In this document: in pieces, positions 1-9,022 of the stretch | Position numbering within the stretch: position 1 is the stretch's first letter | Layout: every line of letters starts with the position of its first letter | Origin: Sulfitobacter sp. HNIBRBA3233 | GTDB lineage: Bacteria; Pseudomonadota; Alphaproteobacteria; Rhodobacterales; Rhodobacteraceae | DNA: 64,000 nucleotides | Assembly: GCF_040149665.1 (NCBI RefSeq) | Contig: NZ_JBEFLP010000001.1 | Span: forward strand, 1,798,001-1,862,000 | Reading direction: 5' to 3' | The notes under the pieces: generated by a model | The model's database searches: none | What the model saw: the letters and a program-made list of their open reading frames with translations, nothing else | Told to the model about the DNA's origin: nothing | Translations under genes and position numbers: made by a program

Positions 1-666
1 GGTGGCACTGATCCAACTGGCTGGCGACTCCCTGCGCAAGCCTTCGAGGATGCAGTCGTGCGCGCTATCTCCGATCACCTGCAAGATCATGCAGACCGAC
101 ATGCCGTTCTCGGCACATGCGACGCTACAAGGTCAGAGATCGCATCAAACGCAGTTGGTGACCTGGCCAAAACGATCAGAACTGAGACTGCCCAACCGGC
201 GTGTTCACTTATCTCAAACATTGTGATCGGACATGGTCGATTGCAAATCGCGGTTGATCAAACCGCGCTGGCTGCAGCCGTCGAACTCAAAACGGATGAC
301 CTGCACGCCTCTCTTTACGCCATCGATGTTCCGTTCACATGCCGACGGCGCGGGGTTGAGACCAGAATCATCGCCGGAGATCGCGCCGCGGCAACGGACG
401 AGACATTGCTCCGCGCCTTGCGCAACGCGCACGATTGGGCCGAATGCCTCAAATCTGGGGAGCCTCTCAAAACACTCGCCCAGCGCGTTGGACACTCTGA
501 ACGCTACATCAGACGTGTGACGTCCCTGGTCTCTCTTTCACCCAAAATCCAGAGCGCGATCCTGGATGGAACACAGCCGCTTGAGATGACCCTTGAAACA
601 CTGGTGCGCGCAGACATTCCGCTCGACTGGTCACACCAAGAGCAGCGCTTTGGATTTGGCAAATAG
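1..666 (+). CDS. Large serine recombinase, C-terminal part (runs off the left edge)
   Basis: The reading frame is open from base 1 to the stop at 664-666 and has no start inside the window, so this is the last 221 residues of a longer protein. The pattern resembles the C-terminal region of alphaproteobacterial resolvase/invertase-type recombinases: an early GWRLPAQAFEDAV-like segment, then a basic helix-turn-helix-like segment around residues 155-175 (LAQRVGHSERYIRRV), then a PLDWSHQEQRFGF ending. The catalytic N-terminal domain would lie left of the window. The neighbours are a TTCCCTG repeat array and a tRNA-Arg gene, which fits a mobile-element edge. Whether the gene is intact cannot be judged here. 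The family call rests on remembered C-terminal signatures. Confidence 0.68.
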   Translation, partial: GGTDPTGWRLPAQAFEDAVVRAISDHLQDHADRHAVLGTCDATRSEIASNAVGDLAKTIRTETAQPACSLISNIVIGHGRLQIAVDQTALAAAVELKTDDLHASLYAIDVPFTCRRRGVETRIIAGDRAAATDETLLRALRNAHDWAECLKSGEPLKTLAQRVGHSERYIRRVTSLVSLSPKIQSAILDGTQPLEMTLETLVRADIPLDWSHQEQRFGFGK

Positions 667-670
667 CCAC

Positions 671-861
671 TTCCCTGTTTGCGAATAACCGTTCCCTGAT
701 ACACACCTGAACATTCCCTGTTCCGTCTAAAAATTTCCCTGTTATCTTCCTTAGGGAAATCCCATCTAAACCTCTGACTTTGCTTCTGTAATACACCTCC
801 ACTCCCAGTGATTTTGGGTCAAATGCGCAAATTTCCCTGTAAATTGGTTATTATCAGGGAA
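671..861. repeat. Array of TTCCCTG repeats with inverted copies
   Basis: TTCCCTG occurs as direct copies at 671-677, 692-698, 714-720, 735-741 and 833-839. There is an exact inverted copy (CAGGGAA) at 855-861 and a one-mismatch inverted copy (TAGGGAA) at 752-758. The region is visibly AT-richer than its surroundings. It lies directly after the recombinase stop codon and could be a recombinase-binding or crossover region. That role is inference. Confidence 0.7.
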
Positions 862-1029
862 ATACCCAGAAAACCGGACCGGCGTTTTGAGCACAGTGAG
901 ACGACTGGCATTCAACCTGCCAATGGGCCCACCACGGGGCGTCTCTGTTGGTGTGGGGGTTTCGCAAATAGCGGGAATTGCGCAAAAATTCTGCGCTGTT
1001 CGGTCATCGAAAATGGAGACAAGGGTGGG
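862..1029. other. Intergenic remainder between the repeat array and tRNA-Arg
   Basis: No gene is supported here. Short frames in this stretch read through the tRNA and have no homology that I recognise. It may be the inner flank of an integrated element. Confidence 0.4.
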
Positions 1030-1106
1030 TGGCGGACCGAGGAGGATTCGAACCCCCGACCCCTTGATTCGTAGTCAAGTACTCTATCCAGCTGAGCTAT
1101 CGGTCC
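1030..1106 (-). tRNA. tRNA-Arg, anticodon ACG
   Basis: On the minus strand a 77-base cloverleaf starts GGACCGA and ends TCGGTCC, then the discriminator G and an encoded CCA at 1032-1030. The anticodon stem is CTTGA/TCAAG around the loop CTACGAA, giving anticodon ACG. The T-loop is GGTTCGAATCC. The 3' end faces the recombinase side, as expected if an element used this tRNA as its attachment site. Confidence 0.96.
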
Positions 1107-6533: not shown

Positions 6534-7367
6534 ATGCTCGACCAACCCGAAGAAATCCACGCGCTCTTTCAGGGTGCCCCGCAGACGACCGAGTTCCGCA
6601 AGCTGCGCAAGCGTATCGTGCGCTACACCCGCGAGGCGATCGAACAATACGGGATGATCGAAGAGGGCGGCAAATGGCTGGTCTGCCTGTCCGGCGGCAA
6701 GGACAGCTATACCCTTCTGGCCGTGCTGCACGAGCTGCAGTGGCGCGGGCTGTTGCCGGTGGAAATTCTTGCCTGCAACCTCGATCAGGGCCAGCCGGGA
6801 TTTCCCGCCACCGTCCTGCCGGAGTTTCTGGAGCGGATGGGCGTGCCGCACCGGATCGAATATCAGGACACCTATTCCATCGTCATGGACAAGATACCGG
6901 CCGGGCGGACCTTCTGCGCGTTGTGCTCGCGGCTGCGGCGCGGCAACCTCTACCGGATCGCGCGCGAGGAAGGCTGCACCGCGGTGGTTCTGGGCCATCA
7001 CCGCGACGATATTCTGGAAACCTTCTTCATGAACCTCTTTCACGGCGGCAGGCTGGCGACCATGCCGCCGAAATTGCTGAACGAAGAGGGCGATCTGTTC
7101 GTCTATCGCCCTCTGGCCCATGTCGCGGAAGCGGATTGCGAAAGATTCGCCTCGGCGATGAAATATCCGATCATCCCCTGCGATCTGTGCGGATCGCAGG
7201 ACGGCCTGCAACGCCAGCAGGTCAAAGCGATTCTGGATGGCTGGGAAACGAATAGCCCCGGCAGACGGCAAGTGATGTTCCGCGCGCTGATGAACGCCCG
7301 TCCGTCGCATCTGCTCGACCCCAAAATATTTGATTTCGCTGGCCTTTCCCGGGATCTCGAAAAATAG
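6534..7367 (+). CDS. ttcA: tRNA 2-thiocytidine(32) synthetase TtcA
   Basis: 277 residues. The ATP-pyrophosphatase P-loop SGGKDS is at 53-58. Cysteines that can carry the iron-sulfur cluster occur as CALC (Cys128, Cys131) and as Cys216/Cys219 in CDLC. GHHRDD follows the P-loop domain, as in TtcA/TilS relatives. The enzyme thiolates cytidine 32 of certain tRNAs using ATP and a sulfur donor. Length matches the family. It lies alone on the plus strand between a divergent DUF3833 gene and an EAL gene. Confidence 0.93.
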
Positions 7368-7444
7368 AAACAATTTTTTCGAGATATTTTCGATACGTTA
7401 ACCTCCGCTTGTTTTCGTACCCGCTAGAGTAGTGGGGTGGGCGC

Positions 7445-9022
7445 ATGTCTGGCCATGACGCCCCCGAACCGGAGGGTCCTGTGCTGGAACAGCAAAACAA
7501 ATCCGCCTACCAGATGGTGCGCAAACGCCTGTTCCGTGCGTTGACCGGACCGCCCGCCTTGGCATTCGTGCCCGCCTTCTCGCTCGCCGCGTTCTGGTTC
7601 GGCGGCGAAGGCGCGCTGCTGGTTGTCGCGGCGATCTTGCCCGTGCTCTACCTCGTGGCGGGCGGGACGGTGGCAACATCCGCGCGGCGCGATGTGTCGG
7701 ACAAACCGATGTCTGCCCGCGCCTTTGACGAACGGGTGGCGCAGGTCGCCGAAACCTCCCGCCAGCACCAGCTGGAGGCCTGCATACACCTCGTCTTTGT
7801 CGAAGAGCTTGAGGATCTGCGCGGTCACCACGGGGCCGCCGCTGCAGAACATGTGATACACCAGACAGGGATGCGCCTGCGCAGCATGTTGCGCGACGAG
7901 GACGCATTGGCCGATCTCGGTCAGGGGTGTTTCGGCGTCTGCGTGGGGCCTTCGCGGCAGCTGTCGCTGGAGCATTGCATTCAGGTCGCCGCGCGTCTTC
8001 AAACGGTTGCCGAGGACGCGATCGCGGTCGACGGCACCGCGATCTATATCAACGCGACGGTTGGATTCTGCCAGCTGTCGCGGTCCACTGCCGGAGCAGG
8101 CGCAGAATGGCTGGAGGCCGCGCGCACAGCGCTCAGCCATGCGCAGGCACGCGGCCCCTCTTCGATACGCGCCTATTCGGACCAGATGAACAAGGTGATC
8201 CGCCCCCGCCGCACCCTGCGCGAAGAGGTCGAGGATGCGCTCGAAAGCGGAGAGATCGCACCGTGGTTCCAGCCGCAACTCTCAACCGACACAGGCATGG
8301 TCAGCGGGTTCGAGGCGCTTGCCCGGTGGGTCCACCCCGTGAGGGGCACGTTGCCGCCGGCCGAGTTTCTGCCCGCAATCGCCGATGCAGGGCTGATGGA
8401 GCGGCTTGCCGAGAAGATGATTTTCCACAGCTTTCGGGCGCTGAAGGCCTGGGACGCTGCGGGTTTGAAAATTCCGTGCGTCGGTGTGAACTTCACCGGA
8501 TCGGAACTCAGCGATCCCAATCTCGTGGAACGGATCAAATGGGATCTGGACCGGTTCGATCTGGGCGCCGACCGGCTGGCGATCGAAATCCTTGAAACCG
8601 TCGTTGCGAATTCGCCCGAGGATATCATCGCCCGCAACATCAGCGCCCTCGGCGATCTGGGGTGCAGGATCGATCTGGATGATTTCGGCACCGGCAACGC
8701 GTCTTTCACCGCAATCAAGCGGTTTGCCATCGGCCGGATCAAGATCGACCGAAGCTTTGTCGTCCGCGCGGACCGCGACCCGGACCAGCAGCAGCTGGTC
8801 AGCGCCATCCTGACGATGGCAGAGCGGCTGGACCTCGACACGCTGGCCGAAGGGGTGGAAACCATGGGCGAACATGTGCTGCTGGCCCAGCTTGGCTGCA
8901 ACCACGTTCAGGGCTTCGGCATCGCGCGCCCCATGCCTTTTGACCAGACCGTTGCGTGGATCACCGCGCACACGGCCAAGCTGCAGGAGGTTCCGCAGAT
9001 CGCGCAGAGCCGCCGGAAATAG
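7445..9022 (+). CDS. EAL-domain cyclic-di-GMP phosphodiesterase with degenerate GGDEF
   Basis: 525 residues. Two membrane helices occupy about 37-73. The middle resembles a diguanylate cyclase fold, but its active-site loop reads LGQGCF (158-163) instead of GGDEF, so it is probably inactive. The C-terminal EAL domain keeps the catalytic elements: EALAR (290-294), Asn349 in NFTGSEL, EILET (381-385), DDFGTG (412-417), KIDRSF (433-438) and EGVET (469-473). It should hydrolyse c-di-GMP. No sensory domain other than the membrane segment is obvious. The 77-base gap before it is AT-rich. Confidence 0.9.
   Translation: MSGHDAPEPEGPVLEQQNKSAYQMVRKRLFRALTGPPALAFVPAFSLAAFWFGGEGALLVVAAILPVLYLVAGGTVATSARRDVSDKPMSARAFDERVAQVAETSRQHQLEACIHLVFVEELEDLRGHHGAAAAEHVIHQTGMRLRSMLRDEDALADLGQGCFGVCVGPSRQLSLEHCIQVAARLQTVAEDAIAVDGTAIYINATVGFCQLSRSTAGAGAEWLEAARTALSHAQARGPSSIRAYSDQMNKVIRPRRTLREEVEDALESGEIAPWFQPQLSTDTGMVSGFEALARWVHPVRGTLPPAEFLPAIADAGLMERLAEKMIFHSFRALKAWDAAGLKIPCVGVNFTGSELSDPNLVERIKWDLDRFDLGADRLAIEILETVVANSPEDIIARNISALGDLGCRIDLDDFGTGNASFTAIKRFAIGRIKIDRSFVVRADRDPDQQQLVSAILTMAERLDLDTLAEGVETMGEHVLLAQLGCNHVQGFGIARPMPFDQTVAWITAHTAKLQEVPQIAQSRRK

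Follow-up and report, generated by a model that had tools for sequence, protein, structure and literature searches.

The window is a stretch of 64,000 nucleotides (G000:C1:1798001-1862000). Positions 1-666, on the plus strand, encode the C-terminal part of a recombinase of the large serine recombinase (LSR) family. This assignment is based on an open reading frame and its translation, Pfam matches to Resolvase and Recombinase, and a match to the PHROG 95 integrase. The stop codon occupies positions 664-666. The segment from here to the 3′ end of a tRNA gene (667-1029, plus strand) contains no gene, and its geometry is kept in relatives; we assign it as the right end of an integrated element. 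It carries two clusters of a heptamer. Cluster A (671-741, plus strand) has direct TTCCCTG copies at 671, 692, 714 and 735, with spacings of 21, 22 and 21 bp. A degenerate inverted site, TAGGGAA, with one mismatch, lies 17 bp past the last of these copies (752-758, minus strand); several relatives have an exact CAGGGAA at this position. Cluster B (833-861) combines TTCCCTG at 833 with CAGGGAA at 855, 22 bp apart, and its inverted site starts about 175 bp (175-176) before the tRNA end. The five direct copies, exact inverse and near-copy listed by an earlier sequence-only reading of this DNA can all be placed, as can the recombinase C-terminus that it saw at the window start. The AT-rich stretch that it described is only mildly so; GC content is below the window average, at 42.6% in 667-870 compared with 61.5% overall.

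Closer to the tRNA gene are sequences of a second kind. The paired site GAGAC-N38-GTCTC, common to the LSR family, is at 898-945. A further GAGAC (1016-1020, plus strand), 14 bp before the tRNA end, is the proposed right half-site of the attachment core. The core itself is placed within the tRNA 3′ end (1030-1050, TGGCGGAC...) by comparison with copies at tandem junctions in relatives, and its dyad centre would be near 1040. The presumed integration target, tRNA-Arg(ACG), is intact (1030-1106, minus strand; ARAGORN and Rfam RF00005). Since the gene is on the minus strand with its 3′ end at 1030, that end faces the recombinase, as had been read.

The recombinase gene begins outside the window, at G000:C1:1796996, which is 1005 bp to the left of position 1. 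The catalytic domain, which the sequence-only reading had suggested looking for, is directly left of the window. The domain order is that of a large serine integrase, with Resolvase catalytic then Recombinase (PF00239 and PF07508). An in-frame TAG at C1:1797554-1797556 falls between the two domains, and the gene looks dead. To the left, on the plus strand, DUF3489, DUF2924 and the recombinase catalytic domain have overlapping starts and stops. The minus strand encodes a ParB-N6/N4-methylase fusion, DUF5681 and a terminase large subunit. Farther left are a DsbA-like protein, a cyclase-TPR protein, an IS240-type transposase and putA. ParB-methylase, DUF5681 and terminase large subunit genes are thus carried here (L005:12544-15843) and also in the islands at L039-L041. 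DUF5681 occupies the usual place of a small terminase, and no capsid family was detected among 20 G106 proteins scanned. The same genome has a second LSR module at tRNA-Ser(GGA) (L108, G000:C1:935000-954999, at 7134-8666). This module has a reduced array, of two sites 11 bp apart, and a GAGAC pair.

We compared the locus with those of congeners. The tRNA is present without the element end beside it in 29 of 29 congeners (L089 shows 4 nt only). The DNA downstream of tRNA-Arg(ACG) varies among most of the 29, with two pairs alike and one too short to judge. Thus, the gene is an integration hotspot. In four congeners, the genes past the tRNA match G000 backbone at about 1751.8-1778.8 kb, which gives an island of ~20 kb. 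No precise empty site was found among the 29. An exact empty site sought by comparing G043 with its congeners was likewise not found; the left breakpoint common to four congeners resembles the end of an insertion sequence. When G043:C11:1082180 is compared with L293, L294, L300 and L301, from four of its congeners, a repeat with one and the same end lies at a different point of the LSR/array end in each, as though a single insertion sequence had inserted several times. In 7 of the 29 congeners (L066-L094) the acceptor stem of tRNA-Arg(ACG) is altered, with GTGCACCA or GTTCACCA in place of GTCCGCCA. Such stems were perhaps replaced by past insertions, or are escaping them. The left border is less clear. 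The sequence-only reading had proposed a search for a second copy of the tRNA 3′ end to the left; there is none for this locus, and GGTGGCGGAC is absent from the 98 kb left of it. Hence, the left border has been lost or has diverged. The IS240-type transposase (G000:C1:1789211-1789978; L005:9212-9979) stands between putA and the element, and putA is far from tRNA-Arg(ACG) in several relatives. A rearrangement may therefore have removed the border.

To place the locus in its family, we aligned 12 LSRs, which led to 80 named loci. A tRNA gene was found within 1000 bp in 51 of the 67 loci with at least 1000 bp of downstream sequence. In all 51 it is on the opposite strand with its 3′ end toward the recombinase. 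Adding short loci brings the number to 55 tRNAs, of nine isotypes: Ser (21), Gln (16), Met (6), Tyr (3), Lys (3), Arg (2), Thr (2), Trp (1) and Asp (1). The remaining 16 of the 67 loci have no tRNA within 1000 bp, and only 4 of these 16 have a tRNA-end match, of 9-20 nt. In a separate context analysis, tRNA adjacency was seen at 12 of 19 family loci; these were 19 of 30 loci, with our own excluded, picked for full length or the presence of an array, so that array loci are favoured. DUF2924 is upstream of the recombinase in nearly all loci, and DUF3489 in most (89 and 64 of 93, by tblastn). On a tree of 96 LSRs, built without the short sequences L154, L180, L203, L018 and OWN2, the tRNA label takes 17 changes. 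Sister recombinases L153 and L174 are at tRNA-Gln and tRNA-Trp, respectively.

Some members of the family lie in tandem. The two LSR ends in G106 are 43.5 kb apart; their likeness, of 96%, begins at the last nucleotides of tRNA-Ser. Copies of tRNA 3′ ends, 8-20 nt long, are present at tandem junctions, and other loci have 10-20 nt of such an end where a whole tRNA would stand. At L125, L130, L037 and L014 an inverted copy of the core comes after it, so that a dyad lies 11 nt inside the tRNA end (judged by eye; 4 of 9 junctions). These palindromes resemble TGGCGG-N9-CCGCCA. Crossover would occur at the dyad centre. At L346, a right end meets a left end, and there is an array on each side of the core TGGCTGTGCAG. 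GAGAC and GTCTC bracket this core with exactly 38 bp between them. The junction is a natural candidate for a full attP-like site.

The family data bear on which enzyme inserted the island. It could be argued that a different integrase did so, and that the serine recombinase block is a passenger; the left attachment copy was not found for our locus, and tRNA islands usually use tyrosine integrases, according to the portion of PMC3218068 available to us. However, LSRs of many genera have the same orientation, and a similar distance, with respect to many tRNA isotypes. Furthermore, the G106 tandem repeats the recombinase end and the tRNA end together. We consider a passenger block extremely improbable. 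An island end in a tRNA, made by the LSR family, is almost certainly what lies here. The sequence-only reading had suggested that the window may open, next to the tRNA, with the right-hand edge of a mobile island. This is supported by the catalytic domain directly left, by relatives in the same position beside tRNAs, by the tRNA 3′-end copies at tandem junctions and by the congeners' backbone past the tRNA. We conclude that window positions 1-1106 belong to a decayed integrative island and form its recombinase-proximal end (attR).

We next consider the TTCCCTG array. In the whole window the heptamer occurs 7 times, compared with 7.06 expected. Six copies are in the 363-bp spacer between stop codon and tRNA, a number reached in 0 of 5000 dinucleotide shuffles (mean 0.09). 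A weaker test, which scored the commonest heptamer of any sequence, gave at least six copies in 4 of 2000 shuffles. A pattern of three sites about 20-23 bp apart is present in 19 of 295 family genomes, whereas the backwards-read control pattern is present in none of the 295. Chance repeats are ruled out by the spacer shuffles and the conservation. The arrays concentrate in one clade of the tree. Of its 26 rows, 22 have at least three sites, 3 have two sites, and one has only 123 bp of downstream sequence. Within this clade, most neighbouring sites have a spacing of 21-22 or 11 bp; the inverted site is about 17 bp past cluster A and about 80 bp before cluster B. In 13 of the 19 array-clade loci with a tRNA, 173-176 bp separate the last array site from the tRNA. 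In a remote clade, L191 and L197 have cluster B at 175 bp from the tRNA. Many LSR relatives lack an array, which is thus not essential to the whole family.

Arrays are also present at what are presumably the opposite ends of elements. The pattern scan identified 23 distinct arrays. Fourteen are within 80 bp past an LSR end; downstream, a tRNA follows in 9 and a tRNA-end fragment in 3. Eight have neither (L309, L313, L314, L315, L335, L317, L323 and L325; in wider views, L337-L344). In 7 of these 8, and also in L142 and L022, GAGAC with at most one mismatch is 27-28 or 37-38 bp past the last direct site. L337, for which the distance had been measured from the wrong start, is not counted as support. 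At L142, L022, L340 and L346, the right end of another LSR element is on the other side of the core. Given these GAGAC distances, and the right ends across the core, we read the eight arrays as the left ends of elements. L022 and L142, where an array lies beside an LSR from outside the array clade, are not exceptions; these arrays are inverted and are part of the neighbouring element.

Direct repeats 21-22 bp apart, adjoining an AT-richer stretch, could be the iterons of a replication origin that works in the excised circle. The G106 island does encode a primase-like D5_N protein and a RepB/ParB protein. Conversely, only 7-9 bp of each repeat unit are conserved, the pattern includes inverted sites and two clusters, arrays are found at left-type as well as right-type ends, and they keep a constant distance from the core. 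No replication initiator or Rep gene adjoins our own array. An origin is improbable. The conserved inverted repeats close to the gene end raise the further idea that a structured RNA or transcription signal, between recombinase and tRNA, underlies the conservation. Against this, RNAalifold predicts no structure on either strand when given the final 140 bp from 19 array loci (energy 0), and the tRNA alone scores above the Rfam cut-off. We regard such a signal as highly improbable.

The main rival explanation concerns the divergent module of ParB-methyltransferase, DUF5681 and terminase genes. The array might be a cis site of this module (for partition, as an operator, or as a packaging start) that is carried at element ends but takes no part in recombination. 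A divergent ParB-methylase is beside the LSR at 19 of 26 array loci compared with 1 of 45 others; the one exception, L165, has a single site. Array ends without an LSR show ParB-methylase and DUF5681 in L337, L344 and L348, and ParB-methylase only in L343. In addition, DUF5681 is directly upstream of the terminase. Hence, the array tracks the ParB-methylase and may serve its module. However, the tree offers just 2-3 independent pairs, and these give no sign of a link other than shared descent. Arrays without the module within reach occur at L125, L014 and L018. Moreover, the array is at a fixed distance from the tRNA end, and from the GAGAC of left-type ends (27-28 or 37-38 bp); a role for the module needs neither. 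We consider this explanation unlikely. The sequence-only reading had proposed that the repeats are binding sites for the recombinase, and the fixed distance to the attachment core makes this plausible. That the array serves recombination is quite possible, if a little short of probable.

The GAGAC pair was examined in the same spacers. GAGAC-N36..40-GTCTC occurs in 34 of 68, whereas four control motif pairs occur in 0, 0, 1 and 0; as an exact GAGAC/GTCTC pair it is missing from half of the loci. The distance between the pair centre and the tRNA end is 107-110 bp in 25 matches, 117-119 bp in 4, 128-129 bp in 3 and 148 bp in 1. The distances of about 108, 118 or 129 bp thus differ by steps near one helical turn. 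Array ends and Gln-type ends both have the pair, with an identity of only 35% between their spacers; it is also found at LSRs without an array. The single GAGAC near the core was scored at loci with a tRNA only. Of 21 array loci, 11 have it at exactly 14 bp before the tRNA, 2 have it elsewhere and 8 are without it; non-array loci almost completely lack it. L017, for which the protein is identical to that of L132, was omitted from the counts of the pair and of the single GAGAC and from the distance measurements. The outer edge of a GAGAC at 14 bp is about 24 bp from the core dyad, which is half the length of the pair. This match, together with the GAGAC-N38-GTCTC that spans the core at L346, suggests that both are integrase-dimer sites. 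Binding of the LSR to the GAGAC pair is, in our estimation, an evenly balanced proposition.

We also modelled the recombinase. The model of the L125 protein (pLDDT 85.6, pTM 0.42) matches Bxb1, phiC31 and other serine integrases. The PF13408 zinc ribbon has no Pfam match in either our own or the L125 protein; two strands are modelled at 315-333. Modelled alone, the last 96 residues of L125 have a pLDDT of 92.8. In a Foldseek search with this C-terminal domain, the top 16 rows are all ParB, KorB, Noc or Spo0J, with a marginal best E value of 0.09. The first structural matches are ParB, Noc, KorB and SopB. VIA-align gave a Z score of 7.9 and an rmsd of 2.6 over 78 residues, where the tool notes that Z under 8 may reflect a common arrangement. 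A profile search of PDB sequences returned three ParB/Spo0J chains only, with marginal E values of 0.12-0.97. Pfam gave scattered weak HTH matches to the C-terminus, including HTH_ParB in 6 of 46 members (best E 0.061). The models are consistent with a predicted ParB/KorB-like DNA-binding domain at the LSR C-terminus. That this domain reads the array is less likely than not.

Taken together, the observations suggest the following scheme. A GAGAC 24 bp from the dyad centre would be the integrase half-site motif. GAGAC-N38-GTCTC would be a second complete integrase-dimer site, about 120 bp off and on a constant helical face. The TTCCCTG array would serve as an arm-type accessory region, through which the att DNA would be folded into a nucleoprotein complex. 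The array may be read by the ParB-like C-terminal domain of the integrase itself or by a co-encoded factor. An LSR island end with phased arm-type sites is probably the correct overall description of the locus. A broader generalisation is tentative, and we would not call it probable. This is that a widespread branch of serine integrases uses arm-dependent recombination, in which a fused ParB-type domain reads heptamer arrays and a second dimer site lies on a constant helical face relative to the crossover, and that this architecture allows the enzyme to be retargeted from one tRNA isotype to another across Alphaproteobacteria.

The appeal of serine integrases is their presumed need for short sites only, with no accessory DNA. 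A large natural group with long, helically phased attachment regions and a partition-type DNA-binding domain would, if real, question this view. It would also point to new integrases with predictable landing sites. Ready target switching would account for the spread of a single island family to many tRNA genes. Sequences of att sites that are open to direct testing are supplied by the tandem junctions. Literature searches on serine integrases, tRNA islands, retargeting, accessory sites and ParB contained, among the matches listed, no title describing the array. For the TTCCCTG heptamer with a recombinase and repeat there was no relevant title among the matches listed. Serine-recombinase islands at tRNA or tmRNA genes are described in the available portions of PMC3218068 and PMC3146451, so the kind is already known. 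As far as the literature searches show, what is new is a large LSR family at multiple tRNA isotypes, with phased arrays and a ParB-like tail. TIGER/Islander was announced in PMC12424338.

How does the family compare with known systems? Bxb1 and phiC31 have the same fold of catalytic and recombinase domains, and a dyad-symmetric core is shared with canonical large serine integrases. The proposed half-site reach of about 24 bp likewise fits canonical att sites, which are about 50 bp long. Unlike Bxb1 and phiC31, the LSR family has an att region of up to about 360 bp with proposed phased accessory sites, a predicted ParB-like C-terminal domain and many tRNA 3′ ends as targets; our own and the L125 proteins also differ in having no zinc-ribbon match in Pfam. 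In lambda-type integration, a tyrosine recombinase acts at a core site with distant, phased accessory arm sites. The layout resembles the proposed core and phased arms, but the chemistry is unrelated and the likeness is an analogy only.

The nearest named phage relatives are the recombinases of Wolbachia phage WO (33% identity over 99% of the query) and Acidithiobacillus phage AcaML1 (52% over 64%). Both are phages, unlike our island. A literature search pairing DUF2924 with a recombinase brought up 3 Wolbachia papers, and DUF2924 adjoins the WO recombinase in the parts of PMC11376236 and PMC10299305 available to us. The available part of PMC3218068 calls serine-recombinase integration into tRNA genes rare, and gives as examples mycobacterial AICEs in tRNA-Leu and phage phiRSM1 in tRNA-Ser. 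By description, these resemble the LSR islands in bringing a serine recombinase to a tRNA, but each uses a single isotype. The Dehalococcoides ssrA islands carry serine recombinases DsiA/DsiB and are in tandem at the tmRNA gene, with 20 bp 3′-end repeats (PMC3146451, in part). As in the LSR islands, there are tandem copies at an RNA gene, 3′-end repeats and a ParB gene in the module; the Dehalococcoides islands differ in that the target is tmRNA, the recombinase gene overlaps the end and an array is not described in the portion of PMC3146451 available to us.
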